From the NCBI RefSeq assembly GCF_022436675.1, contig NZ_JAKUJZ010000008.1:1-64000 (forward strand): a stretch of DNA of 64,000 nucleotides. The letters are read 5' to 3'. Shown here one piece after another: positions 1,785 through 17,090 of this stretch. A program made the translations under genes and the position numbers. The DNA is from Rheinheimera hassiensis. GTDB lineage: Bacteria > Pseudomonadota > Gammaproteobacteria > Enterobacterales > Alteromonadaceae. Within the stretch, counting starts at the first letter, position 1. The number at the start of each line of letters is the position of its first letter. The notes under the pieces were generated by a model. It saw nothing but the letters and a program-made list of their open reading frames with translations. It was not told where the DNA came from and did no database searches.

Positions 1785-1913
1785 CTTATACCCCTGTCGT
1801 TTGTTGTTATTGCGGGTAAGTTCTGCTGCCGTTAAATGGCACAAACAACTATGCGGCTAAAAACAACCTTATTTTGCTGCATCGGTTAGTGACAGAATCA
1901 CCCTCTTTCTCAC

Positions 1914-1932
1914 TAATATTATTGTATTACTT
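1914..1932 (+). promoter_or_regulatory. candidate GntR (FadR-type) operator before endo-arabinanase gene
   Basis: TAATATTATTGTATTACT at 1914-1931 is identical over 18 bp to a site at 14019-14036 before the dehydratase gene. Its core TTGTATTACTT fits 10 of 11 positions of the FadR-subfamily consensus TNGTNNNACNA. It is 130 bp upstream of the start codon, implying a long leader. The regulator is inferred to be the GntR protein encoded at 16283-17011. Confidence 0.7.
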
Positions 1933-2004: not shown

Positions 2005-3045
2005 TTAATCCGGTAGATGATCGTTAAATAACGGTAAGCCGTTAGCCGACCAGTGTATTTGCCGCCAGCGGGTATGGCGGTTGCCGTCGGTTAACGGCGA
2101 GCCTTGCAGTTGCTGAGTGTCGCGGGCGTGGTAAAACATCAGATCTTCACCGTTATCACCAACCACAAAGCTGTTATGCCCTGGGCCATAGCGGTTAAAT
2201 TCCGGCCGGGTCTGAAATACCGGCTCAGGCGCTTTATGCCAGCTTTGCGGGTCAAGCAAATCGGCATTTTCATCGGCCCACAGTAACCCCATGGCATAGC
2301 GGTGATCAGTCGCACTGGCTGAATACGCGATAAAGATTTTGCCATGGCGGAACAATACTGCGGCGCCTTCATTGACTTTATAACCCTGCTGCTCCCAGCT
2401 GAATTCCGGTTGGCTGATAATCACTTCCGGCGCCTCCAGCCGGGTTGGCGTGGCCATTTTTGCCAGCACTAAAGCACTGTTATAGCTGCGCGCGGCATCC
2501 TGCTGCGCCCATACCATATAATGCTGACCGCGGTGGCTGAATACGGTGGCGTCCAGTGAAAAACTGTCCAACGCGCTTTGCATCTGGCCCAGCTCCTGCC
2601 ATTGGCCCTGCATAGGATCGGCGGCGCTATTGGCCAGCACATACATTCTTATTTGAAACGGCCGCTCAGCCTCGCCGGCAGCGACATATAAATACCAGAC
2701 GCCGTCTATCCGATGCAGCTCTGGCGCCCAGATATTGGCGCTCATCGGCCCGCTGGCTTTTTTGCGCCAAACGGTTTTCGCCTGCGCGCTGGCCAGGCTG
2801 GCGATGTCGGGGCTAAAACGCAACTCTATCCGGTCAAACTCCGGCACCGAGGCGGTAAAGTAATAGCCATTGTCGGCTTTATACACCCAGGGATCGGCCC
2901 GGCGCGGAATAAAAGCCGCAGAAACCGCGTTATTTACTGCCAGTTGCTGCGCCGTAGTTAAGTTGCCAGGCGCCGTTTTTTCGCTCTGGCAGCCGCTTAG
3001 CCCTGCCAAGCTGGCTAATACGGCGAATAATGGTAAAAGCTTCAT
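2005..3045 (-). CDS. GH43 alpha-L-arabinofuranosidase-like lipoprotein
   Basis: Exported enzyme expected to release L-arabinose from arabino-oligosaccharides. It begins with a short lipoprotein signal (lipobox LSGC, Cys19; the next residue is not Asp, favouring the outer membrane). GH43 landmarks appear in order: ADPWVYK (base Asp), SLDATVF (second Asp) and VNEGAAVL (acid Glu). The compact single-domain layout of 346 residues resembles exo-acting GH43 subfamily 26 arabinofuranosidases; that subfamily is a judgement by eye. It is the last gene of the ten-gene minus-strand operon and overlaps the lactonase gene by 4 bases (ATGA type), so translation is probably coupled. Confidence 0.8.
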   Translation of the reverse strand: MKLLPLFAVLASLAGLSGCQSEKTAPGNLTTAQQLAVNNAVSAAFIPRRADPWVYKADNGYYFTASVPEFDRIELRFSPDIASLASAQAKTVWRKKASGPMSANIWAPELHRIDGVWYLYVAAGEAERPFQIRMYVLANSAADPMQGQWQELGQMQSALDSFSLDATVFSHRGQHYMVWAQQDAARSYNSALVLAKMATPTRLEAPEVIISQPEFSWEQQGYKVNEGAAVLFRHGKIFIAYSASATDHRYAMGLLWADENADLLDPQSWHKAPEPVFQTRPEFNRYGPGHNSFVVGDNGEDLMFYHARDTQQLQGSPLTDGNRHTRWRQIHWSANGLPLFNDHLPD

Positions 3046-3998
3046 TTAGCACCTCCGTGATAGCGCTGTGCCAGTTGCTGCCACGGTATTACCGCCAGTT
3101 GTGGCTCGGTTAGGCCCTGGTGCGGGTACTGATAAACCAATAAATTGCCCGCTTGTGGTTGCTGGCCAAGCTGCTCAGCACTTAAGCCCTCGGTTGCGGT
3201 GGTAACAAACAGAATATCCAGCTTGTCGCCACCGAGCGCAACACAGGTGGGTTGTGTTACCGGCAGTGGGTAAAGCGCCGCCAGGCTGCCATCGGCTGCA
3301 TAGCGGGCCAGCGCACTGCCGCCCCACAACGCGCAAAGCAGGTGATCATCGGCATCAATAATGGCGCCATCAGGTTCAGCACCAACCGGCGTTGTGGCAA
3401 AGCTTTCGGCAGCGCCAAGCTCACCGGTTATCGGGTTAAAACGGTACCGGTTGATTTGCTGCAATGGTGAATCGGCGTGGTACATCAGGTTGCTATCGTG
3501 GTTCCAGCACAGCGCATTAGGAATACGCAGGCCGCTCAGCATTTGCTGACAACCGTTTTGATCCAGCCGGTACAAGCTGCCGCTGGCAGCAGTATCTGCA
3601 GTTGGCTGCTCTACCATAGTACCGGCCCAGAACCGGCCCTGCCGGTCGACGCGGCCATCGTTAAAGCGGTTGCCGCTTAATTGCTGCTGGGGTTTTGCCA
3701 GCCACAAGATAGCGCCGCTATCGGGGTTATACAGTGCAAACCCGCTGGCAAAGGCCACCAGCAAGGGGTAGCGGGTTGCCATCGGATCGGTAGCATTTAA
3801 CAAGGTAAAACAGCTGATGCGCTCGGGCAATGGCCACTGCCGTAGCGTTTGCTCTGGCCAGCGCAGCTGAAACAAGGCTTTGCCGTGAATATCTGTCCAC
3901 CACACACTGTTGCTGGCCGCGTGCCAGAAAACACCTTCACCCAGGCGGTTTTTTACGTTGATACTGGCTAATAGTTGCAGGTTTTCGCTGTTAGCCAT
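3042..3998 (-). CDS. SMP-30/gluconolactonase family sugar lactonase (probable L-arabinonolactonase)
   Basis: Cytoplasmic six-bladed propeller of the SMP-30/regucalcin family, 318 residues, no signal peptide. Family landmarks are present: the N-terminal GEGVFWH segment with the metal-binding Glu, the NRFNDGRVDRQGRFWAGTM segment with Asn and Asp ligands, and EPDGA further on. In this context it would open L-arabino-1,4-lactone to L-arabonate, the second step of the non-phosphorylative route. It overlaps the upstream permease gene by 8 bases and the downstream glycosidase by 4. Substrate is inferred from the operon; related lactonases act on xylono- or gluconolactone. Confidence 0.8.
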   Translation of the reverse strand: MANSENLQLLASINVKNRLGEGVFWHAASNSVWWTDIHGKALFQLRWPEQTLRQWPLPERISCFTLLNATDPMATRYPLLVAFASGFALYNPDSGAILWLAKPQQQLSGNRFNDGRVDRQGRFWAGTMVEQPTADTAASGSLYRLDQNGCQQMLSGLRIPNALCWNHDSNLMYHADSPLQQINRYRFNPITGELGAAESFATTPVGAEPDGAIIDADDHLLCALWGGSALARYAADGSLAALYPLPVTQPTCVALGGDKLDILFVTTATEGLSAEQLGQQPQAGNLLVYQYPHQGLTEPQLAVIPWQQLAQRYHGGAK

Positions 3999-4977
3999 GA
4001 GCAGTACTCCGTGCCGCTGTCGTTAATGCAGTGCGCCGGCTGAGTAATTTTTGCAGCAAAATAAAACCGAACAACAGCAAGCCGATAACAATTTTGGTCC
4101 ACCAGCTGCTTAAACTGCCATCAAAAATAATATAGGTCTGGATCACGCCCATCAGCAGCACCCCCAACACTGTACCGATAACAAAACCACTACCGCCGGT
4201 TAGCAAAGTACCGCCAATAACTACGGCAGCAATCGCATCCAGCTCCATGCCTACGCCAGCCAGCGCATAGCCGGAGAAGGTATAAAAGGTAAACACTATG
4301 CCCGCCAGCGCCGCCAACACACTACTTAGTACGTAGATGGCGATAGTGGTACGCGCTACCGGCACGCCCATCAATTCGGCTGACTGACTATTACCGCCCA
4401 GCGCATAAACATAAGTACCAAAGCGGCTGTAGTGCATCAGCACAATAACCAGCAACAACAACACGATAAAGATCATGGTTGAAGCACCTACCCAGCCGCC
4501 GCCGGGCAGCACAAAGCCAAATTCAGCTATGGCATCGTAAAAGCTGTGGTCGATGGCTACCGATTCTTCACTTAATGTGGTCGCCAGGCCGCGCGCCAGA
4601 AACATTCCTGCCAGCGTAACAATAAACGGCTGTAGTTTATAAACGTGGATCAGCACGCCCATCAGCGCGCCAAATAATGCTGCCACCGGCAGGATCAGCG
4701 CAAAAGCCAGCAGCGGGTGCCACTGGTACTGGCTTATCAATAAACTGGCGGCCACGCCACTAAGAGCAATCACCGCACCGACCGACAAATCAATACCACC
4801 GGAGATAATCACCAGCGTCATGCCCAGGGCAACAATCAGCAAAAAAGCGTTATCACTAAACAAATTGCTCACCACAATCAGTGAGGCAAAGCCATCAAAC
4901 TGCCAGCCACCAATGCCAAACATCAGGCACAGCAACGCCGCCGTGATCCACAAGGGTAAATAGCGCACCGACATCAT
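3991..4977 (-). CDS. yjfF: sugar ABC transporter permease, YjfF-like
   Basis: Inner-membrane permease of the RbsC/AraH type (328 residues, about 9-10 hydrophobic segments). It carries the family signature SGGIDLSVGAVIAL and a second conserved segment GGTLLTGGSGFVIGT. The sequence is very like E. coli YjfF, one of two permeases of the galactofuranose importer YtfQRT-YjfF, and like the L-arabinofuranose importer GafABCD described in Shewanella. It would form a heterodimer with the permease just upstream, with which it overlaps by 4 bases. L-arabinofuranose is the likely substrate from context. Confidence 0.85.
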   Translation of the reverse strand: MMSVRYLPLWITAALLCLMFGIGGWQFDGFASLIVVSNLFSDNAFLLIVALGMTLVIISGGIDLSVGAVIALSGVAASLLISQYQWHPLLAFALILPVAALFGALMGVLIHVYKLQPFIVTLAGMFLARGLATTLSEESVAIDHSFYDAIAEFGFVLPGGGWVGASTMIFIVLLLLVIVLMHYSRFGTYVYALGGNSQSAELMGVPVARTTIAIYVLSSVLAALAGIVFTFYTFSGYALAGVGMELDAIAAVVIGGTLLTGGSGFVIGTVLGVLLMGVIQTYIIFDGSLSSWWTKIVIGLLLFGFILLQKLLSRRTALTTAARSTAHG

Positions 4978-6050
4978 ATCTGGCCTCCTTTACGCCACTT
5001 TCGCAACTTGGGTAACCAGCTGCTTAGCTGGCGGCGAAACTTATCTGACTGCAGCAACAGCACCAGCAGCACCACCAGGGCTTTAATCAATAAGTTAAAT
5101 TTGGCCGGTAAACCGCTGACAATAATAGTGGTGCTTAAACTTTGAATAATCAGCACGCCGATAACCGACAATAACAGTGAAAAACGCCCACCGCTCAGTG
5201 CCGCACCACCAATCACCACCGCCAGAATGGCATCCAGTTCCAGCCATAAACCGGCGTTATTGGCATCCGAGCCCTGAATATCGGCGGCGCTAATCATACC
5301 GGCCAACGCGGCGCAAAAGCCGGCAAAGGCATAGACAAACAGCTTTATCGCTTTATCGTTAATACCTAAATAACGGCTGGCGGTAGCATTGCAGCCTACC
5401 GCCTCAATAAACAGGCCCAGCGCGGTGCGCCGCAGCAGTAGCTGGCTTAAAGCAAACATGCCGATAACCAGCCAGATTGGCAGCGGCAGCCCTAGCCAAC
5501 TGCCAGTACCAAGCCAGGCAAAATCGGGCCGCTGAAATGTCACAATCTGGCCCTGGTTAATCAGCTGGGCGACACCGCGTCCGGCCACCATCAGCAATAA
5601 GGTAGCCACAATCGGCTGAATTTTCAGATAACTGACCAGAGTGCCATTAATCAGGCCGGCAGCAATACCTGTCGCCAGCCCGGCTGCAATCACCAGTGCC
5701 AACGGCAACGCTGTCTGCAATAATAAATTGGCGCATACTGCACCGGCAATGGCCATCACGGCCCCGACTGATAAATCAATACCGCCGGTAGCAATCACCA
5801 GGCTCATACCTATTGCCAGCAGTGCTACCGGCGCACTACGGTTTAAAATATCAATTAACGAGCCATACAAACGGCCATCCTGAAAACTGAGCTGAAAAAA
5901 GCTGGCATCCAACACCAGGTTTACCGCCAGCAGCAACATTAGCGCTGCCAGTGGCCATAAATAACGCGCCGACGCTTTAATACTGCCGGGGCTGTAACGT
6001 GCCAGCCGCGCCTGCTGTAAGCTGTCGGTGCAAGATTGAGTCTGTTTCAT
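4974..6050 (-). CDS. ytfT: sugar ABC transporter permease, YtfT-like
   Basis: Second RbsC/AraH-type permease, 358 residues, with a slightly long polar N-terminus before the first membrane segment. The motif ATGGIDLSVGAVMAIAG and the later VIGGAALSGGRFS segment are typical. Closest remembered relative is E. coli YtfT. Its start follows the ATPase stop directly, and its end overlaps the next permease gene by 4 bases, as expected for subunits made in fixed ratio. Transport role is firm; arabinofuranose specificity is inferred. Confidence 0.85.
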   Translation of the reverse strand: MKQTQSCTDSLQQARLARYSPGSIKASARYLWPLAALMLLLAVNLVLDASFFQLSFQDGRLYGSLIDILNRSAPVALLAIGMSLVIATGGIDLSVGAVMAIAGAVCANLLLQTALPLALVIAAGLATGIAAGLINGTLVSYLKIQPIVATLLLMVAGRGVAQLINQGQIVTFQRPDFAWLGTGSWLGLPLPIWLVIGMFALSQLLLRRTALGLFIEAVGCNATASRYLGINDKAIKLFVYAFAGFCAALAGMISAADIQGSDANNAGLWLELDAILAVVIGGAALSGGRFSLLLSVIGVLIIQSLSTTIIVSGLPAKFNLLIKALVVLLVLLLQSDKFRRQLSSWLPKLRKWRKGGQI

Positions 6051-7550
6051 TTATCCCTCTGCAATAGCCTGCATAATGTGCGGGGCAGTCATAGTGTCGC
6101 CGCTTAGCTCAGTCACTTTTTGCCGGTCGCGCAGCACCACCACTTTACCGGCAAAAGCGACCAGCTCCTCCAGCTCAGACGAGGTGACCAGTAGCGACAT
6201 ACCTTGCTGACACAGGCTTTTAATCAGTAATAAAATTTCGGCGTGGGCGCCAATATCAATGCCGCGGGTAGGTTCATCGAGGATCAGTAACTGCGGATTA
6301 ATGGCCAGCCAGCGCGCCAGGATCACCTTTTGCTGATTGCCACCGCTTAGTTGCTCGATAGGTTTTTCGGCATCCGGCGTGGCAATGTGCAATTTGTCGA
6401 TATAAAACGCCGCCAATTGCTGCTGTTGTTTAACCGGCAAATAGCGCCACCAGCCGCGGCGTGCCTGTAATGCCAGCATAATGTTTTCGCGAATGGATAA
6501 AGGGCCGATAATGCCCTCTGTTTTGCGCTCTTCCGGACACAGCGCAATACCGGCTTTTATCGCATCAGCAGGCTGCTGCAACCGCAAAGTTCTGCCGCCA
6601 AACTGAATCTCGCCCTGGCTTAAAGCATCAACACCATACACAGCACGACACACTTCGGTACGGCCAGAGCCAAGCAACCCGGCCAATCCGACAGCCTGGC
6701 CTTGTGCTACCGTTAGCGAAATACCACTAATTGAGCCCTTTACTGCAATATTATTCAGTACTAACAGCAGCTCAGCTGCGGCTGGCGTGGTGGTAGCAGC
6801 CTGATGTGTCAGCTGCTGCAACTCTTTGCCGAGCATGGCTTCAATCAGCCGGGCGCGCGGTAAATCAGCCGCCAGGTATTCGCCTACTTTGCTGCCGTTA
6901 CGCAGCACGGTAATGCGGTCACTTATCTGATACACCTGATCAAGAAAGTGGGTAATAAACACTATCGCCACACCCTGATCACGCAGCTGGCGCATTACGT
7001 CAAACAACATCTGCACTTCACTGCTATCGAGGCTGGCAGTCGGTTCGTCCAGCACCAGCACTTTAGCCGACATTGCTACGCCGCGGGCAATGGCAATCAG
7101 CTGCTGTACGGCGACAGAATATTGCGCTAACGGGGCGCTAACGTCGATATTAAGCTTAAAACGCAGCAATAACTGCTGCGCCTGCTGCTGCATTTTTTGG
7201 TGCTGAATTAAGCCGAAGCGGCGCGGTTCATGACCCAGAAACAGGTTTTGTGCCACGCTCAGGTTAGGCAGTAAATTCACCTCCTGATACACGGTACTAA
7301 TACCGGCTTGTTGTGCTGCAGCCGGGCTGGCAAAGCTGCAGTTTTGGCTGTTAAAGTAAATTTCACCGCTGCTTTTGGCCAACGCGCCGGTCATTACCTT
7401 AACCAGGGTAGACTTACCGGCACCGTTTTCGCCCAGCAAAGCATGCACTTCACCGGCAAATAAACGTAAATCGACATCTTGCAGCGCCTTAACGCCGGGA
7501 AAATGTTTACAGACCTGTTTCAGCTCTAATACCAGAGATGGCGTAGTCAT
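6051..7550 (-). CDS. ytfR: sugar ABC transporter ATP-binding protein, YtfR-like
   Basis: Tandem ATPase of 499 residues that powers import. The first domain has Walker A GENGAGKST (about residue 41) and Walker B VLVLDEPTAS, but its signature is degenerate (YSVAVQQ rather than LSGGQ). The second domain has a poor Walker A (GLLGSGRTEV) with a good signature LSGGNQQK and LLILDEPTRG. This split of features between the two halves is normal for the RbsA/AraG/MglA family. It lies 53 bases after the binding-protein gene and abuts the first permease gene. Confidence 0.88.
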   Translation of the reverse strand: MTTPSLVLELKQVCKHFPGVKALQDVDLRLFAGEVHALLGENGAGKSTLVKVMTGALAKSSGEIYFNSQNCSFASPAAAQQAGISTVYQEVNLLPNLSVAQNLFLGHEPRRFGLIQHQKMQQQAQQLLLRFKLNIDVSAPLAQYSVAVQQLIAIARGVAMSAKVLVLDEPTASLDSSEVQMLFDVMRQLRDQGVAIVFITHFLDQVYQISDRITVLRNGSKVGEYLAADLPRARLIEAMLGKELQQLTHQAATTTPAAAELLLVLNNIAVKGSISGISLTVAQGQAVGLAGLLGSGRTEVCRAVYGVDALSQGEIQFGGRTLRLQQPADAIKAGIALCPEERKTEGIIGPLSIRENIMLALQARRGWWRYLPVKQQQQLAAFYIDKLHIATPDAEKPIEQLSGGNQQKVILARWLAINPQLLILDEPTRGIDIGAHAEILLLIKSLCQQGMSLLVTSSELEELVAFAGKVVVLRDRQKVTELSGDTMTAPHIMQAIAEG

Positions 7551-7603
7551 AAATGGCTCCTGTACTTTGCGGCAGCGAAGGCCAAACCTGCACTGCCAGT
7601 CAG

Positions 7604-8563
7604 TTATTTATTGGTACGCTTCTGGTATTCAGCTGCTGCCGTATCCTGGCTGAATAGCTCCCCGGTGTTATTGATATATTTGGCAATATCTTTATCGCCA
7701 TTAAGGTAAGCCGCTATCACATCAAAGGCCGGGCCGCCCAGGTGCGGATCAAGCTCAACGGTGGCATTGGCTTCACCGTCGGCCATGGCTTTGAAGTAGT
7801 CCGGTACGCCGTCTACCGCCACTACCAAAATATCCTGGCCCGGTTTTAAGCCTGCTTCTTTAATGGCCTGAATCGCTCCCAGTGCCATTTCATCGTTATG
7901 CGCCCACAAAGCACAGATATTGCGGCCGCCCTGCTCAGCCTTAAGGAAGCTTTCCATCACTTCTTTACCTTTACTGCGGGTAAATTCAGCGGTCTGGCTG
8001 CGGATAATTTTTGCAGCGGGATACTCTGCCAATACTTCGTTAAAGCCTTTGGCGCGGTCAATGGCAGCCGTGGCCCCCACGGTGCCCTGTAGTTCAACTA
8101 TGGCGCAGTTACCGTCGGTTTTTTGCATCAGCCAGCGGGCAACTTTGCGGCCTTCCTCGGTAAAGTCTGAGGCAATACGGGTTAAAAATAATGAGTCGTC
8201 ATTTAGCTGCACATTACGATCGACAATCACCACCGGAATACGCGCCCGTTTGGCCTCACGCAGCACCGGCGCCCAGCCGGTTTCAACCACAGGCGCAATA
8301 ATAATGGCATCCACGCGCTGGGCAATAAAGCCACGTACGGCACGGATCTGGTTTTCCTGTTTTTGCTGCGCATCAGCAAATTTTAAGTCGATTTTACGCG
8401 CAGCCGCCTCTTGCTTAACCGACTCACTGAAACTGCTGCGCCAGCCGCTTTCTGAACCCACCTGCGAAAAGCCAATGGTAGTGGCCCTCGCCAAAGAAGA
8501 TAGTGCCAGCGAAGAAGACAGCACCAGCACAGCTGTGGCGCCTAACAGACGTTTAATTTTCAT
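7604..8563 (-). CDS. ytfQ: periplasmic sugar-binding protein, YtfQ-like
   Basis: Periplasmic substrate-binding protein of 319 residues. A Sec signal peptide (about residues 1-28, ending SLARA) is followed by GFSQVGSESGWR, the first strand and binding loop seen in E. coli YtfQ. Further close matches include QQKQENQIRAVRGF, PVVETGWAPVLREAK, VELQGTVGATAAIDRAKGF, TRSKGKEVMESF and HNDEMALGAIQAIKEAGL. YtfQ binds furanose sugars, which fits arabinofuranose released by the GH43 enzymes. The gene is preceded by an 88-bp gap with two hairpins, which may allow separate expression of this subunit. Confidence 0.88.
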   Translation of the reverse strand: MKIKRLLGATAVLVLSSSLALSSLARATTIGFSQVGSESGWRSSFSESVKQEAAARKIDLKFADAQQKQENQIRAVRGFIAQRVDAIIIAPVVETGWAPVLREAKRARIPVVIVDRNVQLNDDSLFLTRIASDFTEEGRKVARWLMQKTDGNCAIVELQGTVGATAAIDRAKGFNEVLAEYPAAKIIRSQTAEFTRSKGKEVMESFLKAEQGGRNICALWAHNDEMALGAIQAIKEAGLKPGQDILVVAVDGVPDYFKAMADGEANATVELDPHLGGPAFDVIAAYLNGDKDIAKYINNTGELFSQDTAAAEYQKRTNK

Positions 8564-8579
8564 ACCTTGTCCCCGTTGA

Positions 8580-8631
8580 CCGGGTTACCCCGGCAGTTTT
8601 ATAAGTTATGCGATGCGGGGTCTGTGCCCCG
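8580..8631. promoter_or_regulatory. paired hairpins in operon gap before binding-protein gene
   Basis: Two short GC-rich inverted repeats sit in the 88-bp gap between the epimerase and binding-protein genes: CCGGG/CCCGG at 8580-8593 and CGGGG/CCCCG at 8616-8631. Neither has a T run on the coding (minus) side, so they look like RNA-processing or stability elements rather than terminators. Confidence 0.5.
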
Positions 8632-8651
8632 TTGCTATCGCGCTTGGCGGT

Positions 8652-9761
8652 TTAGCTTATCCTCTGTGTATAAAAACGATGAATAGTGCGCTGCCGGTAG
8701 GGCTGCGCCGGTGTAATTAAAATCGATGGAAACTGCGGCAGATTAACTGCATTCGGGTAAGCATGGGTTTCCAGGCAAAGCCCGGCAAATTTGCTAAGCG
8801 GCAACCCATCGGCGCCGTTCAGGCTGCCATCGAGAAAATTGCCACTGTAAAACTGCATACCGGCCTCAGTGGTCAGAATGTCCATCACCCGGCCTGAGCC
8901 CGGATCAGACAGCACCGCCGCCAGTTGCGGTTGCGGTGTATTGGCATCGCTCTGCACAATATGGTTTTGCACAATATGGTTTTGCGCAAAATCGTTCAGC
9001 ACAAAAAAGTGATCGTAACCGTTAGGCAACTGCTGTATATCACGGCCGATAGTTTTGGCCTGCTGAAAATCAAAGGCCGTACCGGCAACCGCCAGCAAGT
9101 TACCGTTAGGCACCAGTTGCTCATTCACCTCTAAGGTATAGCCGGCGTTAAGCCATAATGTATGCCCCAGCACATCAGCACCGGGTTTAGCGGCCAGATT
9201 CCAGTAACAATGGTTAGTTAACGATAACGGCGTAAGCTTATCGGTAATGGCGTAATAGTCGATGCTAAGCTCATTATTCCGGTTAAGACGGTAGCAAACT
9301 TCAACCGCCACATTACCGGGGTAGCCCTGATCGCCATCGGCACTTTGGCAGCTGAAGATCACCGCTACGCTGTCGGCCTGTTGCTCTGTACGGTATTGCC
9401 AAAAACGACTGCCAAGCCCTTCTGGCCCGCCATGCAACTGGTTGGCGCCCTCGTTGGCGGCAAGTTTGACCTGCTTGCCATCAAGCTCAAACGTCGCAGC
9501 AGCAATGCGGTTGGCCACCCGGCCAATGGTGACGCCAAAATAATACCGGTTAGTGGCCCACTGCGCAGGGTCCTGATAGTTCAGCACCAGTTCGGCCGCT
9601 GTACCGCTTTCATCAAGCTGGGTAACCGACCAGATGCCGGCCCCCAGCGTCGACAGCGTAGCTGTTAAGCCATTGCCATTATCCAGCGTGATTAGCTGCA
9701 CTGTTTGCGCCAGCGCAGGATGCGCCAGCTCACGGCGGCTAACTGACATTGCCGCTGCCAT
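8652..9761 (-). CDS. galM: aldose 1-epimerase (mutarotase)
   Basis: Cytoplasmic GalM-type mutarotase, 369 residues, interconverting sugar anomers so that imported arabinose can meet the anomer-specific dehydrogenase. Typical motifs are NRIAAATFELDGK, ANEGANQLHGGPEGLGSRFW (catalytic His region), LTNHCYWNLA and the late Glu in LCLETHAYPNAVN. The start overlaps the upstream dehydrogenase stop (TAATG). A loop near residues 260-270 carries a perfect 15-bp tandem duplication giving QNHIVQNHIV. Confidence 0.88.
   Translation of the reverse strand: MAAAMSVSRRELAHPALAQTVQLITLDNGNGLTATLSTLGAGIWSVTQLDESGTAAELVLNYQDPAQWATNRYYFGVTIGRVANRIAAATFELDGKQVKLAANEGANQLHGGPEGLGSRFWQYRTEQQADSVAVIFSCQSADGDQGYPGNVAVEVCYRLNRNNELSIDYYAITDKLTPLSLTNHCYWNLAAKPGADVLGHTLWLNAGYTLEVNEQLVPNGNLLAVAGTAFDFQQAKTIGRDIQQLPNGYDHFFVLNDFAQNHIVQNHIVQSDANTPQPQLAAVLSDPGSGRVMDILTTEAGMQFYSGNFLDGSLNGADGLPLSKFAGLCLETHAYPNAVNLPQFPSILITPAQPYRQRTIHRFYTQRIS
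8953..8982. repeat. 15-bp tandem duplication inside mutarotase gene
   Basis: TGCACAATATGGTTT occurs twice in tandem (8953-8967 and 8968-8982), with a decayed third start after it. It preserves the reading frame and encodes a repeated five-residue loop. Confidence 0.9.
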
Positions 9762-11377
9762 TAGCTGGCGCTCGCAACCGCGGCGTCTACCGCAGCCGTG
9801 GTGCGCACACCATTTACCAACCGCGAGATCTGCAACGGATTGCTATCTTGCAGCTCTTGCGGCAACAGTGCCTGTGGGTAGTTCTGGAAACATATTGGCC
9901 GGATAAAACGGGCAATTGAGGCGGTACCTACCGAAGTGAAACGAGCATCGGTTGCTGCTGGGAAAGGCCCGCCATGCATCATCGCATCGCACACTTCCAC
10001 ACCAGTCGGGAAGTTATTAATCACCAACCGGCCCACTTTGCTGCGCAGCAACTGCACCAGTTTACTTTGTCCGGCCAGTTCCGGCTCTGTGCAGTGTATA
10101 GTGCCGGTTAGCTGGCCTTTAAGGCTGCTCACTACCTGGAGTAACTGATTGTTATCGTCACAGACCACAACCACCGAGGTGTGGCCAAACACTTCTTCCT
10201 GTAAATGCGGGTTCGCCAAAAAGGTAGCCGCAGCCACTTTAAATAACTGCGCCTGAGTATAAAAGCCCTGCTCTGCAGTAACGGCTGCGCCGCTGCCAGC
10301 GATACTCACGCCTGGCTGTGCTGCCAGCTCAGCCACACCTTTATTGTAGGCATCGGCAATATTGTCGTTCAGCATCACGCCGGCCGGTGTTTTCGCCAGC
10401 GCCTCAGCAGCGCTTTGCATAAAGCTGTCCAGCTCTGGCCCGGCTATAGCTATGGCCACGCCCGGGTTAACACAAAACTGACCACAGCCCAGGGTTAACG
10501 AGGCCACATAGCCCTGAGCCAGTGCTGCGCCAGACTGCTGTAGCGCCTGTGGCAGAAATACCACGGGGTTAACACTGCCCATTTCGGCAAATACCGGTAT
10601 CGGCTCCGGCCGGTTATTGGCCAGTTTGAACAGCGCCATACCACCGGCCAGTGAGCCGGTAAAACCGACTGCTTTTACGGCTGGTGCTACTACCAGCTCA
10701 GAGCCAATTTCCCGGCCAGAACCCATTAATAAAGAGAACACACCAGCGGGTAAACCACAGGCTTTAACGGCGTTATCCAGCGCCTGCGCTACCAACTCAC
10801 AGCTGCCGGGGTGCGAGTTATGGCCTTTTACCAGCACCGGGCAGCCTGCTGCCAGCGCCGCTGCCGTATCGCCACCGGCGACAGAAAACGCCAGTGGAAA
10901 ATTGCTGGCACCAAATACCACAACCGGCCCCAGCGGCTGGTTCATAAAACGTATATCCGGCCTTGGCAGTGGCTGGCGCTCTGGTAACGCCTTATCAATA
11001 CGGATATTGAGATAATCACCCGTGCGAATGGAGCTGGCAAATAAGCGCAGCTGATGACAAATACGACCACGCTCACCTTCAACCCGGCCGCGCGGATAGC
11101 CGGTCTCCTGCATTACCCGTTCAATTAGCTCGTCCCCCAACGCCATTACTTCTTCGGCGCAGCGCTGTAAAAACTCAGCCCGCTGTGCCGCACTGGTGTT
11201 TGCATACAAGGGCGCTGCAGCTTCTGCTGCCGCTACAGCTGAGGCAACCTGGGCCTTGCTGGCATAGCTTAATGCTGGGGCTATTTTCTGGCCGGTTGCC
11301 GGGTTAACGGCCTGATATTGCCCTGCTTCACCTGCCAGCCATTGGCCGTTAATCAGTTGTTTGCCGGTAATACGCAT
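9761..11377 (-). CDS. 2-oxoglutarate semialdehyde dehydrogenase (KGSADH)
   Basis: NAD(P)-dependent aldehyde dehydrogenase, 538 residues, expected to oxidise 2-oxoglutarate semialdehyde to 2-oxoglutarate, the last step of the pathway. Landmarks are GASNFPLAFSVAGGDTAAALA (cofactor fold), GFTGS near 238-242, general base Glu265 in FAEMGSVNP and nucleophile Cys302 in GCGQFCVNPG. The FAEMGSVNP and GQFC wording is characteristic of the KGSADH subgroup. It lies 31 bases after the SDR gene and overlaps the epimerase start. Alternative substrates such as other short aldehydes are less likely given the complete pathway around it. Confidence 0.88.
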   Translation of the reverse strand: MRITGKQLINGQWLAGEAGQYQAVNPATGQKIAPALSYASKAQVASAVAAAEAAAPLYANTSAAQRAEFLQRCAEEVMALGDELIERVMQETGYPRGRVEGERGRICHQLRLFASSIRTGDYLNIRIDKALPERQPLPRPDIRFMNQPLGPVVVFGASNFPLAFSVAGGDTAAALAAGCPVLVKGHNSHPGSCELVAQALDNAVKACGLPAGVFSLLMGSGREIGSELVVAPAVKAVGFTGSLAGGMALFKLANNRPEPIPVFAEMGSVNPVVFLPQALQQSGAALAQGYVASLTLGCGQFCVNPGVAIAIAGPELDSFMQSAAEALAKTPAGVMLNDNIADAYNKGVAELAAQPGVSIAGSGAAVTAEQGFYTQAQLFKVAAATFLANPHLQEEVFGHTSVVVVCDDNNQLLQVVSSLKGQLTGTIHCTEPELAGQSKLVQLLRSKVGRLVINNFPTGVEVCDAMMHGGPFPAATDARFTSVGTASIARFIRPICFQNYPQALLPQELQDSNPLQISRLVNGVRTTAAVDAAVASAS

Positions 11378-11408
11378 AATCTTGGTCCTGTTAAGTTAGC
11401 GCAGCTGG

Positions 11409-12191
11409 TTAAATCCAGCCGCCGTCTACAATAAAGTTCTGTGCTGTACAAAGCCTGCTGTCATCAGAGGCGAGAAACAGCGCCATAGCTGCGACATCTT
11501 CCGGCATCACGCTGTCTTTAAGGCACTGGTTTTTCTCTATATCCAGGGCAGTTTCCGGTGTCACCCAGTGGGTTAACTGGCGCTCGGTCATTACCCAGCC
11601 TGGTGTTAACGTATTAACGCGGATTTTATCCGGACCTAGATCCCGAGCTAAACCCCGGGTTAAACCCAATACGGCAGCTTTGGCACTGGTATAGCCCGGC
11701 ATGCCGCCCTGGCTTTCATACCAGCTCATCGAGCCAAGGTTAATCACTGAGCCACCACCGAGGTGTTTCATCTGCGGATACACTGCCTGAATAGCAAAAA
11801 ACTGATGGCGCAGGTTAATTTGCATGCGCTGATCCCAGTACTCCTCTGTTACATCCAAAAAGTGATGCCGGGTGTCACTGGCCGCGTTATTAATAAGCAC
11901 CGCAATGGCACCTAAATCCTGCTCAGTCTGGCCGATAACCTGCTTTAAGCGCTCGATATTAGTCAGATCGCAACTGTAAAAGCGCACTGCACCATGTTGC
12001 CGGTTGTCATCCGCTAACACCTGTAACCGACTAACCAACGCCTGGGATTCTGCTTCAAGGATATCAACAAACGCCACTTTGGCGCCCTGGCGATAAAAGG
12101 CTTCAACCAGGCAAGCACCAATGCCGGAACCGCCACCGGAGATAAATACGGTTTTATCCCGCAAGCTGGGATAATTGTTACTTAACTTCAT
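11409..12191 (-). CDS. SDR sugar 1-dehydrogenase, XylB-like (probable L-arabinose 1-dehydrogenase)
   Basis: Classical short-chain dehydrogenase, 260 residues. The cofactor glycine motif GGGSGIG is at 19-25, NNAAS at about 101-105, and the catalytic Ser154, Tyr167 and Lys171 are in place. An acidic residue (FVDI, Asp43) after the second strand points to NAD+ over NADP+. The sequence closely follows Caulobacter D-xylose 1-dehydrogenase XylB (YPSL start, CDLTN, WDQRMQINLRH, DGGWI end). In this locus it most likely oxidises L-arabinose, the C4 epimer of D-xylose, to the lactone. Sugar preference cannot be read from sequence alone. Confidence 0.82.
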   Translation of the reverse strand: MKLSNNYPSLRDKTVFISGGGSGIGACLVEAFYRQGAKVAFVDILEAESQALVSRLQVLADDNRQHGAVRFYSCDLTNIERLKQVIGQTEQDLGAIAVLINNAASDTRHHFLDVTEEYWDQRMQINLRHQFFAIQAVYPQMKHLGGGSVINLGSMSWYESQGGMPGYTSAKAAVLGLTRGLARDLGPDKIRVNTLTPGWVMTERQLTHWVTPETALDIEKNQCLKDSVMPEDVAAMALFLASDDSRLCTAQNFIVDGGWI

Positions 12192-12241
12192 AGCTAACCC
12201 TGTTTAACCGCCTGCTGTAGCAGGCGCCATTTTTATTATGT

Positions 12242-13993
12242 TTAATGCGAATGTGCCGGCACCGCTGCACCGCGACAGCCCACCAGAAAATCAAAGTCGC
12301 AGCCTTCATCGGCCTGCAATACCCGTTCGCGATACATTTCCATATAACCACCGGTACGCAGAATGACCTGGGTAGATTTTAGTTTTTCCAGCCGTGCCGC
12401 CAGTTCAGCATCCGACACTTCCAGTTGCAACAGGCCATTTTCGGCATCCAGCTGAATGTAATCGCCTTCCTGCACGGCGGCCAGCGGGCCCAGTTCCATC
12501 GCTTCGGGGGTGACATGCAGTACTACTGTGCCAAAGGCAGTACCACTCATCCGCGCATCAGATATACGCACCATATCTTTAATGCCTTTTTTCAGCACCT
12601 TAGGTGGCAGGCCCATATTGCCAACTTCGGCCATGCCGGGGTAGCCTTTGGGGCCACAGTTTTTCAATACCATTACGCTGTTTTCGTCGATATCCAGCTC
12701 AGGATCGTTAATTCGCGCTTTGTATTGGTCAAAGTTTTCAAATACTACCGCTTTACCACGATGTTTCATCAGGTGCGGGCTGGCGGCAGAGGGCTTTAAT
12801 ACCGCGCCGCGCGGTGCCAGATTACCGCGTAAGATACAGATGCCGCCGTTAGCCACCAGCGGGTTATCCAGCGGGCGAATGACATCATCGTTATGACACT
12901 GCGCGTCTTTAACGTTGTCCCAGATAGTTTTGCCGTTTACCGTCAGCGCGTCTTTTGTCAGCACACCCAGCTCACCCAGCCGGCGATGCACGGCCGGTAA
13001 GCCACCGGCATAATAAAACTCTTCCATCAGATATTTACCGGATGGCTGTAAATTCACAATGGTGGGCACACCGCGGCCGTGTTCCCAGTCGTCCAGGCTT
13101 AAATCCACGCCGATGCGTCCGGCGATAGCTTTTAAGTGGATCACGGCGTTAGTCGAGCCACCAATGGCAGCATTGGTGCGGATAGCATTTAAAAACGCAT
13201 CTTTGGTCAGAATTTTCGACAGGCGCAAATCCTCATGCACCATCTCAACAATGCGCATCCCGGACAAATGTGCCAGCACGTAACGGCGGGAATCCACCGC
13301 CGGAATAGCCGCATTATGTGGCAAACTGGTACCGAGCGATTCCGCCATACAGGCCATAGTAGAGGCGGTGCCCATGGTATTACAGGTACCTGCCGAGCGT
13401 GACATACCGGCTTCGGCGCTTAGAAATTCGTTCATATCAATATTGCCGGCTTTTAAATCTTCGTGCATCCGCCACACCAAAGTACCGGAGCCAACATCCT
13501 GGCCTTTATGTTTACCATTTAACATCGGGCCACCGGTCACAACTATGGTAGGCAAATCGCAGCTGGCTGCCCCCATTAGTAATGCAGGTGTGGTCTTATC
13601 ACAGCCCACCAGCAGCACTACGCCGTCTATCGGATTACCGCGGATAGACTCTTCAGTATCCATCGCAGCCAGGTTGCGGGTTAACATTGCAGTAGGGCGT
13701 AAATTCGATTCGCCATTAGAGAACACCGGAAACTCAACCGGAATACCACCGGCTTCACGAATACCATTTTTTACCCGCTCGGCAATTTCCCGAAAATGAG
13801 CATTGCACGGCGTTAACTCTGACCAGGTATTGCACACACCGATAACCGGCCTGCCCTGAAAGTGGTGATCCGGAATACCCTGATTTTTCATCCAACTACG
13901 GTACATAAAACCGTTTTTGTCATTAGTGCCGAACCAGCTTGCTGAGCGCAATACTGTCTTGTTGCCACTCTTTTTGTCGTCGTTATCTGCCAT
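12242..13993 (-). CDS. IlvD/Edd-family sugar-acid dehydratase (probable L-arabonate dehydratase)
   Basis: [Fe-S] and Mg-dependent dehydratase converting L-arabonate to 2-keto-3-deoxy-L-arabonate. ATG at 13993 (MADNDD) is preferred over an upstream in-frame TTG. Three cluster Cys are seen in PCN (63), GCDKTT (131) and GTCNTMG (204); the spacings of 68 and 73 match pentonate dehydratases that carry a [2Fe-2S] cluster. Length of 583 residues suits the pentonate branch rather than IlvD. It is the first gene of the ten-gene operon and sits directly behind the operator at 14019. D-xylonate is the main alternative substrate. Confidence 0.85.
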   Translation of the reverse strand: MADNDDKKSGNKTVLRSASWFGTNDKNGFMYRSWMKNQGIPDHHFQGRPVIGVCNTWSELTPCNAHFREIAERVKNGIREAGGIPVEFPVFSNGESNLRPTAMLTRNLAAMDTEESIRGNPIDGVVLLVGCDKTTPALLMGAASCDLPTIVVTGGPMLNGKHKGQDVGSGTLVWRMHEDLKAGNIDMNEFLSAEAGMSRSAGTCNTMGTASTMACMAESLGTSLPHNAAIPAVDSRRYVLAHLSGMRIVEMVHEDLRLSKILTKDAFLNAIRTNAAIGGSTNAVIHLKAIAGRIGVDLSLDDWEHGRGVPTIVNLQPSGKYLMEEFYYAGGLPAVHRRLGELGVLTKDALTVNGKTIWDNVKDAQCHNDDVIRPLDNPLVANGGICILRGNLAPRGAVLKPSAASPHLMKHRGKAVVFENFDQYKARINDPELDIDENSVMVLKNCGPKGYPGMAEVGNMGLPPKVLKKGIKDMVRISDARMSGTAFGTVVLHVTPEAMELGPLAAVQEGDYIQLDAENGLLQLEVSDAELAARLEKLKSTQVILRTGGYMEMYRERVLQADEGCDFDFLVGCRGAAVPAHSH

Positions 13994-14018
13994 GGTTGCA
14001 TCTCGCAATAGCTTAATT

Positions 14019-14037
14019 TAATATTATTGTATTACTA
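14019..14037 (+). promoter_or_regulatory. candidate GntR (FadR-type) operator before dehydratase operon
   Basis: The core TTGTATTACTA at 14027-14037 fits TNGTNNNACNA exactly. The preceding bases make it identical over 18 bp to the site at 1914. It lies 26 bp upstream of the dehydratase start codon, where a bound repressor would block transcription of the whole ten-gene operon. Confidence 0.75.
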
Positions 14038-14134
14038 ATACTAAAACCTTGGAAAGGTTACAAGTGATTTTTTTTCTCCGGCAGCAAAATCGGCAGCGTG
14101 CCAATGGGGTAAAACAGCTGTCAAAGCAGCTAAT

Positions 14135-14149
14135 TAGTAATACTATAAT
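14135..14149 (+). promoter_or_regulatory. operator overlapping -10 box of plus-strand GH43 gene
   Basis: TAGTAATACTA at 14135-14145 is a near-perfect palindrome that fits TNGTNNNACNA on both strands. It overlaps a perfect -10 hexamer TATAAT at 14144-14149; the -35 is poor. On the minus strand, the bases around it match the 14019 site at 15 of 16 positions. This arrangement fits repression of the GH43 gene starting at 14186. Confidence 0.75.
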
Positions 14150-14185
14150 TCAAATATGGCAATTACAAATATCGACAGGGGACTT

Positions 14186-15121
14186 ATGAAAACACTACTA
14201 CTGCTACTGGGCTTAAGCTGGGCACTGGCTGCCAGCGCTAACCCGATTTTTAAGGACATACGCACTGCTGATCCAGCTGCGATAGTGCACAACGACACCG
14301 TATACCTGTACACCGGCCATGATGAAGCGCCAGACAACAAAGGCTTTTTCGTCATGCATAACTGGCTGGTGTTTTCGTCGACCGATATGCTGAACTGGCA
14401 GCGCCATGGTCCTAAACTCAGCACCAAAGACTTTAAATGGGCCAAAGGCGATGCCTGGGCTTCACATGTGATTGAAAAAAATGGCAAATTTTATTGGTTT
14501 GTTACCGTGCGCCACGCCACTATTAATGGCTTTGCTATTGGCGTTGCGGTAGCCGACAACCCATTGGGGCCGTTTAAAGATGCGCTAGGCAAGGCACTTA
14601 TTACCAATGATATGACCACCGACACCGAGATTGACTGGGACGACATAGACCCGGCCGTGTTTACCGACGATGATGGCCAGTCTTATCTGTTCTGGGGTAA
14701 TACCAAAGCACGCTACGCCAAACTGAAAGACAATATGATTGAGCTTGATGGCCCTATTAAGACTATTGATATACCTGATTTTACTGAAGCCTTGTGGGTG
14801 CATAAACGTGGCGACATTTACTATCTGTCCTATGCATCCGGCTTCCCGGAGAAAATTGCCTATGCCACCAGCAAAAGTATTCATGGCCCCTGGCAGTATC
14901 GCGGAATTCTAAACGAAGTAGCCGGCAACTCGCCGACTAACCATCAGTCGATTATCGAGTTTAAAGATAAATGGTTCTTTATCTACCACACCGGTGCATC
15001 ACAACCTGACGGCGGTGAATTCCGCCGTGCGGTGGCAATAGATCCACTGTACTACAACGAAGATGGCAGCATTAAACGCATCATTATGACATCTGAAGGT
15101 ATCACCGAAGCGGTGAAATAA
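14186..15121 (+). CDS. GH43 family glycoside hydrolase, periplasmic
   Basis: Third family-43 enzyme of the locus, 311 residues. The start is the ATG at 14186, which has an AGGGG site and begins a Sec signal peptide (cut near ALAASA); the longer frame from 14156 has neither. There is no lipobox, so it should be soluble in the periplasm. Expected acids lie in TADPAAIV, IDPAVF and FTEALWV. It probably trims arabinose-containing oligosaccharides; specificity (arabinofuranosidase or xylosidase-like) is unclear. It is followed after 73 bases by the FAH-family gene on the same strand. Confidence 0.82.
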   Translation: MKTLLLLLGLSWALAASANPIFKDIRTADPAAIVHNDTVYLYTGHDEAPDNKGFFVMHNWLVFSSTDMLNWQRHGPKLSTKDFKWAKGDAWASHVIEKNGKFYWFVTVRHATINGFAIGVAVADNPLGPFKDALGKALITNDMTTDTEIDWDDIDPAVFTDDDGQSYLFWGNTKARYAKLKDNMIELDGPIKTIDIPDFTEALWVHKRGDIYYLSYASGFPEKIAYATSKSIHGPWQYRGILNEVAGNSPTNHQSIIEFKDKWFFIYHTGASQPDGGEFRRAVAIDPLYYNEDGSIKRIIMTSEGITEAVK

Positions 15122-15194
15122 CTTATTTGCCGGCTGCAAGCTAATATGCCGCGGCCGGTTCTTTTGCACTATTTTTTGTAATAAGAGGAACACC

Positions 15195-16193
15195 ATGCGT
15201 CTTATTCAGTTTTATACATCAGACAAACAGCGCGCTGTAGCTATTGTTAATTCAACCGACAGCGTTACAGTGCTGCATAGCATCAGTTCGGTTTATCAGT
15301 TGGCACAACTGGCGCTAAGCAACCAACTGTCATTGCAACAGCAAAGTCTGGCCCTGAAAAGCGACACCACGTTAAGCTATGCCGACATTATTCAGCAACA
15401 ACGCTTGCTGCCGCCCTATGACCACCCGGACGATGCCGCCCATATGCTGGTAACGGGCACCGGCCTGACCCACTTAGGCAGCGCCGACACCCGCGCCACT
15501 ATGCATGCGCAGACATCCGGCAAAGCCGACTCTGAGCTGACCGATACCATGAAAATGTTTAAGCTGGGAGTCGAAGGCGGCAAGCCTGCAGCTGGCCAGC
15601 AAGGCGTGCAGCCGGAATGGTTTTACAAAGGCGATGGCAGCATTGTCGTCGCACCAGGGGCAGCGTTAACCTCCCCTGCATTTGCGTTAGATGGCGGCGA
15701 AGAGCCGGAAATTGCCGGTTTGTACCTGATTGGCCCGCAAGGACAACCTTACCGGCTTGGCTTTGCTATTGGTAATGAGTTCTCTGATCATAAAACCGAG
15801 CGGCAGAACTACCTGTATCTGGCGCATTCCAAACTACGGCCATGCTCGTTCGGCCCTGAGCTGCTGGTAGGCGAGTTACCGGCTGATATTCGCGGCCACT
15901 CGCGGATTATCCGTAACGGCGAAACTGTGTGGCAAAAACCTTTTGTCAGTGGCGAGCAGAATATGTCGCACAGCATTGCCAACCTTGAGGCGCACCATTT
16001 TAAATACCGCCAGTTCTGCCGCCCGGGCGATGCCCATGTGCATTTCTTTGGCACCGCAACTTTAAGCTTTGGCGATGGCTTTGAAACGCAGGCAGGTGAT
16101 GTGTTTGAAATTGGCGCAGCGCCATTTGGCCAGCCACTGCAAAATATGCTGGCTGTCAATAATGATGTCAGTATGCAGGTTAAAGCGCTGTAA
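15195..16193 (+). CDS. FAH-family enzyme, AraD1/GguC type (probable 2-keto-3-deoxy-L-arabonate dehydratase)
   Basis: Cytoplasmic fumarylacetoacetate hydrolase-fold protein of 332 residues. The metal-binding core is recognisable: GGEEPEIAGLYLIG (acidic ligands), IGNEFSDH and KLRPCSFGPELLVG. The overall sequence resembles the AraD1/GguC family found with bacterial arabinose and galactose transport genes. It supplies the one step otherwise missing here, dehydration of 2-keto-3-deoxy-L-arabonate to 2-oxoglutarate semialdehyde; in many bacteria that step is done by an unrelated DHDPS-fold enzyme. Role is inferred from family and from pathway completeness. Confidence 0.78.
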   Translation: MRLIQFYTSDKQRAVAIVNSTDSVTVLHSISSVYQLAQLALSNQLSLQQQSLALKSDTTLSYADIIQQQRLLPPYDHPDDAAHMLVTGTGLTHLGSADTRATMHAQTSGKADSELTDTMKMFKLGVEGGKPAAGQQGVQPEWFYKGDGSIVVAPGAALTSPAFALDGGEEPEIAGLYLIGPQGQPYRLGFAIGNEFSDHKTERQNYLYLAHSKLRPCSFGPELLVGELPADIRGHSRIIRNGETVWQKPFVSGEQNMSHSIANLEAHHFKYRQFCRPGDAHVHFFGTATLSFGDGFETQAGDVFEIGAAPFGQPLQNMLAVNNDVSMQVKAL

Positions 16194-16282: not shown

Positions 16283-17011
16283 TTATGCGCCGCTGCCGGT
16301 AAAATTGGTCAGGGCGTAATCGAGGTTTTCTTTTGACCGGCTGAGTAAACGCGACATGGCTTGTTTGGCGCCTTGCGCATCGCCTACGGCTATCGCCTCA
16401 TACACCGCTTTGTGCGCCGGCAGGGCTTCGGTATATTCATCACCAATTGAACTGCTCAGACGGAATAACCCCATCAACGCCGTTTGAATGGTCATGCCCA
16501 GCGAAATCATAAATTCATTGTTAGTGGAATTCAGCACACAGAGGTGGAAATTCAGATCGCTGGAGAATACTTCATCAGTGCCCAGCTTAGCTTTTTCCAT
16601 ATCTTTATAAGCTTTAGCCAGCAATTTTATCTGCTCAGCAGTGCTGTTTTTCGCAGCCAGCTCTGCAGAGGCCGGTTCAAAAATTTCCCGTACTTCAAAC
16701 AACGAAACAAAAAACTTTGGCGTAGGCTTAGACTCAAAACACCAACTGAGTATTTCGGTATCGAACATATTCCAATACTGCCGCGGCCGCACGCGGGTGC
16801 CCAGCTTGGGACGCGCCTCAATTAAGCCTTTGGCAGTGAGAATTTTAAAGGCTTCACGCAGCGCGGTACGCGATACATCCAGTTCTGCACCAATGGCAGC
16901 TTCGTTCGGAATATACTCACCCGGCGTATAAACCCCACTAACAATGCGGGTTCCCAGCTCTTCGGCCACCCAACCATGGATACTTTGCGGACGATTTCTG
17001 CCTGCAGCCAT
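16283..17011 (-). CDS. GntR-family (FadR subfamily) transcriptional regulator
   Basis: DNA-binding regulator of 242 residues. The N-terminal winged helix (about 10-80) has the GntR pattern: LGTRIVSGVYTPGEYIPNE, DVSRTALREAFKILTAKGLI, RPKLGTRVRPR. The C-terminal all-helical FCD domain (about 95-230) has LFEVREIFEPASAELAA, DLNFH and HKAVYEAI, with Asp/His residues suited to a metal-dependent effector site. FadR-type regulators bind TNGTNNNACNA, the pattern found before the neighbouring units, so it is the obvious local controller. Sugar acid such as L-arabonate or its keto-deoxy product is a likely inducer, as inference only. Confidence 0.85.
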   Translation of the reverse strand: MAAGRNRPQSIHGWVAEELGTRIVSGVYTPGEYIPNEAAIGAELDVSRTALREAFKILTAKGLIEARPKLGTRVRPRQYWNMFDTEILSWCFESKPTPKFFVSLFEVREIFEPASAELAAKNSTAEQIKLLAKAYKDMEKAKLGTDEVFSSDLNFHLCVLNSTNNEFMISLGMTIQTALMGLFRLSSSIGDEYTEALPAHKAVYEAIAVGDAQGAKQAMSRLLSRSKENLDYALTNFTGSGA

Positions 17012-17069
17012 TCAGTTTCCCCTTGCTCACACCTGTACTATCAACCGTAACCGCTTAACTGTGCCAATA

Positions 17070-17090
17070 CTACTACAATAATATATATCC
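17070..17090 (-). promoter_or_regulatory. weak operator-like site before the gntR-type gene
   Basis: On the minus strand, ATATTATTGTA (17084-17074) repeats 11 bases of the operator before the dehydratase, but the second half (GTAGTA in place of TTACTA) departs from the consensus. It lies about 60 bp upstream of the regulator start and could mediate autoregulation. Confidence 0.4.

Follow-up and report, generated by a model that had tools for sequence, protein, structure and literature searches.

The first 64,000 nucleotides of contig NZ_JAKUJZ010000008.1 from Rheinheimera hassiensis (hereafter the window) contain a locus that very probably encodes a route from arabinan to 2-oxoglutarate, in which L-arabinose would be degraded oxidatively and without phosphorylation. 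Assigned by family, a candidate gene is present for each of the five steps from L-arabinose to 2-oxoglutarate, and family searches thereby bear out the claim of an initial annotation that the complete non-phosphorylative route is found in one locus. Family searches did not find the phosphorylative AraBAD route (isomerase, ribulokinase and ribulose-5-phosphate 4-epimerase) in the genome, which comprises 4,698,363 bases in 78 contigs and is 99.98% complete. If this reading is correct, the locus offers a self-contained gammaproteobacterial example that combines breakdown of the polysaccharide with import and catabolism of the sugar, and probably with their regulation, in one block.

All named pathway and transport genes are open reading frames (ORFs) in the window (Table 1). 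From 14008 down to 2005 the minus strand carries, in order, the genes for an IlvD/EDD dehydratase, an SDR-family dehydrogenase, an aldehyde dehydrogenase, an aldose epimerase, four ABC transporter components (together 3991-8563), an SMP-30 family lactonase and a GH43 glycosidase. No gap between neighbouring ORFs exceeds 88 bases, and some ORFs overlap, suggesting that this run forms one transcript. The plus strand holds a GH43 gene and then the FAH-type gene (14156-16193), and the pathway genes are flanked by minus-strand genes for a GntR/FCD regulator and an AbnB-like endo-arabinanase. The initial annotation had placed the importer and mutarotase in the same transcript as the pathway enzymes, which may well hold for the importer, mutarotase, dehydrogenase, lactonase, dehydratase and aldehyde dehydrogenase genes, but not for the FAH-type gene, because it lies on the opposite strand. 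The extent given there, 2005-16193, covers only part of the locus: its left edge is the GH43 gene at 2005-3045, and the regulator and endo-arabinanase genes fall outside it.

A GC-rich hairpin at 12209-12226 lies between the dehydratase and SDR genes. Because its T-run sits on the plus strand, the hairpin does not resemble a terminator of the minus-strand operon; it may set the relative expression of its neighbours.

In the scheme that we propose, the GH43 enzymes of the window, together with GH43 and GH127 enzymes, a TonB receptor and a GPH transporter encoded on another contig (C60), would release L-arabinose and small arabinosides and allow their entry. L-arabinose would be taken up, probably as the furanose, by an ABC importer of the GafABCD type, and the mutarotase would balance its anomers. 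The SDR would oxidise L-arabinose to the lactone, which the SMP-30 enzyme would convert to L-arabinonate, and the IlvD/EDD enzyme would yield 2-keto-3-deoxy-L-arabinonate. The FAH-type enzyme (GguC/AraD1) would then produce 2-oxoglutarate semialdehyde, and the NADP-type aldehyde dehydrogenase would deliver 2-oxoglutarate to the citric acid cycle.

Table 1. Features of the putative arabinan and L-arabinose locus, in window coordinates.
Feature	Coordinates	Strand	Evidence or remark
GH43 endo-arabinanase, AbnB-like, lipoprotein-type start (start read from sequence)	243..1844	-	NF053746 AbnB 705 bits, below cut-off 750; Pfam GH43 + GH43_C
Putative operator AGTAATACAATAAT	1918..1931	-	upstream of 243-1844 gene
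GH43 glycosidase, lipoprotein-type start (read from sequence), final gene of minus-strand run	2005..3045	-	PF04616 210 bits
SMP-30/gluconolactonase family, candidate L-arabinolactonase	3042..3998	-	Pfam SGL 232 bits
ABC permease, YjfF/GafD type	3991..4977	-	NCBIfam PRK11618 469.6 bits, above cut-off 363
ABC permease, YtfT/GafC type	4974..6050	-	YtfT model 421 bits, below cut-off 535
ABC ATPase, YtfR/GafB type	6051..7550	-	YtfR model 730.6 bits, below cut-off 850
Sugar-binding protein, GafA type	7604..8563	-	5ocp 505.8 bits vs YtfQ 2vk2 361
Aldose 1-epimerase (GalM type), candidate L-arabinose mutarotase AraM	8652..9761	-	PRK11055 287 bits, cut-off 240; TIGR02636 309, below cut-off 398
NADP-type aldehyde dehydrogenase, candidate 2-oxoglutarate semialdehyde dehydrogenase	9761..11377	-	PDB 3v4c 497 bits, 1eyy 443
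SDR, candidate L-arabinose 1-dehydrogenase AraY	11409..12191	-	best PDB chain 7wwx 292 bits; NF053674 331 bits
IlvD/EDD sugar-acid dehydratase, candidate L-arabinonate dehydratase AraC	12242..14008	-	5j83 856 bits, 5oyn 460
Putative operator	14023..14036	-	upstream of 12242-14008; overlaps -10-like TACAAT
Putative operator AGTAATACTATAAT	14136..14149	+	upstream of 14156-15121
GH43 glycosidase, divergent transcript	14156..15121	+	PF04616 155 bits
FAH-type enzyme, GguC/AraD1	15195..16193	+	NF040903 533.5 bits; predicted fold best match 2q1a, Z 29.4
GntR-family (FCD) regulator, candidate AraR	16283..17011	-	Pfam GntR + FCD
Weak operator-like site, 2 mismatches, may be chance	17069..17082	+	upstream of regulator gene

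Candidate enzymes for the five steps

The FAH-type protein, candidate for the fourth step, passes the curated NCBIfam model for GguC/AraD1 (cut-off 340 bits), with its entire length covered. At E 0.001 a Pfam search placed this protein in no family, and at E 1e-5 phmmer matched it to no relative of known structure, a gap that is closed by the NCBIfam match and by the predicted fold. A structure model built on a 34-sequence alignment (the window protein and 33 of 54 other homologues) adopts the FAH fold, with 2q1a as its closest match. Five residues (E141, E170, E172, D198 and K213) are invariant in this alignment. The spacing of the three glutamates equals that of Glu114, Glu143 and Glu145, the residues named for a Sulfolobus enzyme (PMC9795676), in a comparison of spacing rather than a residue-by-residue superposition. 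The catalytic Glu/Lys and the three acidic metal ligands of 2-keto-3-deoxypentonate dehydratases of the FAH superfamily may be among these five residues.

It is extremely unlikely that the locus instead follows Route III, in which oxidation of the 2-keto-3-deoxy acid and its cleavage to pyruvate and glycolate take the place of dehydration. FAH-fold hydrolases of that route exist (PMC6336799), and the diketo-deoxyrhamnonate hydrolase 8gsr is among the fold matches of our model. However, the top match is a dehydratase, an aldehyde dehydrogenase is present, and the locus ORFs that were read hold one SDR and one FAH-fold gene and hence no separate 4-dehydrogenase.

For the remaining steps of the oxidative route, position and pathway completeness suggest the roles proposed for the SDR, lactonase, dehydratase and aldehyde dehydrogenase. 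The structure nearest to the SDR, 7wwx, is presumably the L-arabinose dehydrogenase of H. huttiense, the PDB entry itself giving a generic name. The lactonase is placed to family only, with no NCBIfam model matched at E 0.001. The dehydratase passes the wider subfamily model NF004784 (950 bits, cut-off 539), and its structural matches are L-arabinonate dehydratase 5j83 (856 bits), dihydroxyacid dehydratase 8ej0 (812 bits) and D-xylonate dehydratase 5oyn (460 bits). Elsewhere in the genome this family is represented by two proteins, IlvD and Edd, leaving the window protein as the sole IlvD/EDD candidate for a pentonate dehydratase (enolase-type sugar-acid dehydratases were not searched for).

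The aldehyde dehydrogenase has a cysteine within a GQFCVN motif that starts at residue 299. We take its structural matches 3v4c and 1eyy, whose PDB entries carry generic names, to be relatives of type III semialdehyde dehydrogenases. This protein does not resemble the named 2-oxoglutarate semialdehyde dehydrogenases; among the best 80 of 567 loci retrieved with the SDR, the first 13 (L001-L013) encode relatives with at least 50% identity to it.

Absence of AraBAD and a separate route for D-xylose

The initial annotation noted that isomerase and kinase genes are missing from the locus, and genome-wide family searches extend this observation. No AraA_N domain was found in the whole genome, in a search that did detect the domain in five of the 14 genomes used as controls, those of E. 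coli and B. subtilis among them. The sole FGGY kinase, on contig C42, is the xylulokinase XylB (TIGR01312, 585 bits, cut-off 380), and its gene adjoins the xylose isomerase gene xylA (L084 9906-12940). The sole class-II aldolase domain, on contig C2, belongs to the methylthioribulose-1-phosphate dehydratase MtnB (256 bits, cut-off 226), so no AraD epimerase was found in the genome. With no AraBAD backup found, single-gene tests of the route should be clean.

A gene resembling that for ribulose-phosphate 3-epimerase, read from the sequence rather than searched for, is located at 18251-18946 near a tryptophanyl-tRNA synthetase-like gene. It looks like a housekeeping gene.

Importer and binding protein

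The binding protein of the importer matches 5ocp best, with E. coli YtfQ (2vk2) scoring lower (Table 1). The 5OCP structure is of GafASw with bound L-arabinofuranose, and this protein is reported to be selective over D-galactose, possibly through Phe40 (PMC10191376). Phe40 of GafASw is the phenylalanine of GWRTSF and aligns with Phe45 of the window protein and with a glutamate in E. coli, the match of numbering being our own reading of the alignment. We therefore take the residue proposed for L-arabinofuranose selectivity to be retained.

A variant of this scheme, doubtful though conceivable, is that L-arabinofuranose released from arabinan enters the cell as the furanose and that the SDR oxidises this form directly to the 1,4-lactone, with the mutarotase serving spill-over only. 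A single ring form would then run through the glycosidases, GafABCD and the dehydrogenase. Such an arrangement would explain the presence of a furanose importer beside an oxidative route, and also why the isomerase route could be dropped.

Which sugar does the locus serve?

Three indirect lines of evidence suggest L-arabinose as the physiological substrate of the oxidative route: the location of xylAB elsewhere in the genome, the arabinan-type glycosidases and the similarity of the binding protein to GafA. Several findings weigh against this reading. Sequence by itself is unable to assign a sugar to the dehydrogenase or the lactonase, and among named NCBI models the SDR scores highest against D-xylose 1-dehydrogenase (NF053674), whose cut-off of 400 bits it does not reach. 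The dehydratase just misses the L-arabinonate dehydratase model NF009559 (839 bits against a cut-off of 882), and its nearest structural relative, the L-arabinonate dehydratase of R. leguminosarum, is reported to be most efficient on D-fuconate (PMC9795676). The aldehyde dehydrogenase is far below NF052305 and NF042993 (126.5 and 102.3 bits against cut-offs of 750 and 770). Moreover, three of the four importer subunits, those of the YtfQ (457.9 bits, cut-off 510), YtfT and YtfR types, fall below the cut-offs of the galactofuranose models, which the YjfF type passes. Finally, one study describes all D-specific fourth-step enzymes as FAH-type and all L-specific ones as DHDPS-type (PMC7374468).

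The last of these observations, together with the best model for the SDR, would fit a D-xylose Weimberg pathway, which could use the same five enzyme families. We nevertheless consider this highly improbable. The D-xylose reading is weakened by the xylA-xylB pair, which gives D-xylose an isomerase route of its own, and the dehydratase scores far higher against L-arabinonate than against D-xylonate dehydratase. Arabinan-type glycosidases and a GafA nearest to an L-arabinofuranose binder also speak against D-xylose, as does a published FAH/MhpD-type enzyme that is strictly specific for the L-isomer (PMC6336799). Since reports on FAH/MhpD-type and DHDPS-type enzymes point both ways, stereospecificity is left to context, which suggests that the GguC/AraD1-type enzyme acts on the L-isomer. 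The same genome, then, has an isomerase route for D-xylose and, by prediction, an oxidative one for L-arabinose.

It is also very unlikely that the locus serves arabino-configured sugars broadly (L-arabinose, D-galactose and D-fucose), with D-galactose or D-galactofuranose an equal substrate. The GguC and semialdehyde steps suit five-carbon intermediates, and the shortfall of three importer subunits against curated galactofuranose models argues in the same direction. Although galactofuranose transporters occur within the importer family, and the SDR and dehydratase of such pathways also accept D-galactose or D-galactonate (PMC6336799, PMC9795676), the binding protein has the phenylalanine proposed to exclude the galactose form (PMC10191376).

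Extension of the locus onto a second contig

Besides the three GH43 genes of the window, a block on contig C60 (L100 5965-16895) carries genes for a TonB receptor, a GH43 protein with a ricin-type lectin domain, a second GH43 protein, a GPH transporter, a third GH43 protein and a GH127 protein, the last belonging to the beta-L-arabinofuranosidase family. One of these three GH43 proteins is AbnA-like. In an alignment with Rheinheimera sp. EpRS3, the homologue of the C60 end directly adjoins the homologue of the window from base 190 onward. This contiguity suggests that the locus runs on leftward past the window, with the C60 block as the outer half of an arabinan locus.

Window positions 1-189 and the C60 end (L100 16892-17125) are missing at the corresponding place in EpRS3. 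A 19-base stretch at window positions 173-191 recurs in inverted orientation at the C60 end, beside a TA. The window start and the C60 end thus resemble the termini of an insertion element located between the GH127 and endo-arabinanase genes, which would explain the contig break.

Regulator and putative operators

The GntR-family regulator probably represses the locus through promoter sites resembling AGTAATAC(A/T)ATAAT. This pattern is common to the upstream regions of the endo-arabinanase, dehydratase and divergent GH43 genes, and its only three exact matches in the entire genome are all in this locus, a count that is not independent because the pattern was derived from those sites. With up to three mismatches allowed, the window contains 18 matches compared with 9.6 expected, and 1 of 100 shuffles reached 18. 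A remote site with one mismatch (C60:417058) lies between the AbnA-like GH43 gene and the GPH symporter gene. A site of the same sequence is located about 6.6 kb from the first operator in both EpRS3 and R. pacifica. We find this site, contiguous with the locus in a relative, more telling than the number of exact matches. The other two of the three remote one-mismatch sites lie by ExbB/ExbD-like and TyrS/M23-peptidase-like genes (identified by reading). Neither pair of genes has an evident connection with arabinose, and we regard both sites as chance matches.

Among the first 13 loci, a site with at most one mismatch immediately precedes the dehydratase gene in L001-L006, L008 and L009, and one lies before the GguC gene in L007; L012 has one operator-like site, far from the cluster. 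Other results count against an operator function. A reversed-pattern control gave 4 genomic matches with at most one mismatch against 6 for the pattern, which was derived from its own sites. No operator-like site with at most one mismatch was found in L010, L011 and L013, all of which carry the five enzymes. Part of the conservation may reflect a promoter, since one window site overlaps a -10-like TACAAT; promoter-like matches are no commoner than in shuffles.

Distribution and relation to known systems

The nearest named relatives of the SDR gene, among the best 80 of 567 loci, are those of Rheinheimera sp. EpRS3 (99%) and R. pacifica (95%), which marks the genome as of Rheinheimera type. R. 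pacifica DSM 17616 has a counterpart of the whole locus (L002). We scored a protein as present at an identity of 60% (dehydratase), 45% (GguC) or 50% (aldehyde dehydrogenase), each over at least half of its length. On this basis the dehydratase is present in 55 of these 80 loci, GguC in 49, both in 48 and the aldehyde dehydrogenase in 13. All five enzymes co-occur in 11 loci, nine of which also have the whole gafABCD importer; these nine include representatives of Rheinheimera, Idiomarina, Aliidiomarina and Saccharophagus sp. K07. AraA was found in none of the 10 genomes searched from the 11 five-enzyme loci.

The pathway is patchy in the window's genus, with GguC above cut-off in two and AraA in none of six sampled genomes. 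In a second genus of the family (g45), AraA occurs in one genome and GguC in another. Across 147 genomes of the family, 13 have AraA and six have GguC at E 0.001, four of these above cut-off. AraA and above-cut-off GguC were never found together in these 147 genomes, but about 0.35 co-occurrences are expected by chance, leaving the comparison powerless as a test of mutual exclusion. A sample of 274 gammaproteobacterial genomes spread evenly over 222 genera, with GguC above cut-off in three and AraA in none, is uninformative on the statement of the initial annotation that most characterised gammaproteobacteria use the phosphorylative route.

The locus is a complete form of an already known kind, the route having been published in whole or in part for Shewanella, Halomonas, Herbaspirillum and Pseudomonas. 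Any suggestion in the initial annotation that it is rare in kind finds no support, given reports of the route or its parts in Shewanella (alongside araBAD), Halomonas and Pseudomonas putida (PMC2996990, PMC5507952, PMC10107873). The literature collection that we searched yielded no paper on arabinose or arabinan use, or on a non-phosphorylative pathway, in Rheinheimera.

The Shewanella locus is described as comprising AraUVWZ, AraM, AraY, AraC, AraL and the GntR-type regulator AraR-II, and the clusters named as most like it are in Saccharophagus degradans and Cellvibrio japonicus (PMC2996990). It shares with the window a Gaf-type importer (AraUVWZ), the AraM mutarotase, the predicted dehydrogenase AraY, the arabonate dehydratase AraC and the lactonase AraL (PMC2996990, PMC10191376), and likewise a GntR-type regulator, a GPH-family transporter, a TonB-type receptor and arabinosidases (PMC2996990). 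However, Shewanella has araBAD and is reported to lack other oxidative-route genes (PMC2996990), whereas candidates for the whole route are found here and araBAD is absent. Some gaf clusters are linked to the oxidative route (PMC10191376).

The L-arabinose pathway of Azospirillum brasilense proceeds through five identical reactions to 2-oxoglutarate with an IlvD/EDD dehydratase, but, as described in PMC9795676, it uses a Gfo/Idh/MocA dehydrogenase and a DHDPS-type fourth-step dehydratase where the window has an SDR and an FAH-fold protein. Herbaspirillum huttiense and Paraburkholderia mimosarum have an SDR L-arabinose dehydrogenase, an IlvD/EDD enzyme and an FAH/MhpD-type 2-keto-3-deoxy-L-pentonate dehydratase, assayed there (PMC6336799); both are Betaproteobacteria, and the likeness to the window enzymes is by family, not by sequence comparison. 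Gammaproteobacterial oxidative use of L-arabinose is also reported for the ara locus of Halomonas HL-48/HL-93 and for araDXA of Pseudomonas putida M2 (PMC5507952, PMC10107873). Halomonas differs in its AraFGH-type importer and its LysR plus GntR regulators (PMC5507952), and P. putida M2 in that the glucose dehydrogenase Gcd makes the first oxidation (PMC10107873).

Apart from the locus, the window contains a ribosomal protein L31 leader of the Gammaproteobacteria type on the minus strand at 47659-47711 (Rfam RF03157, 55.8 bits), near a divergent priA gene at 47859-50033.

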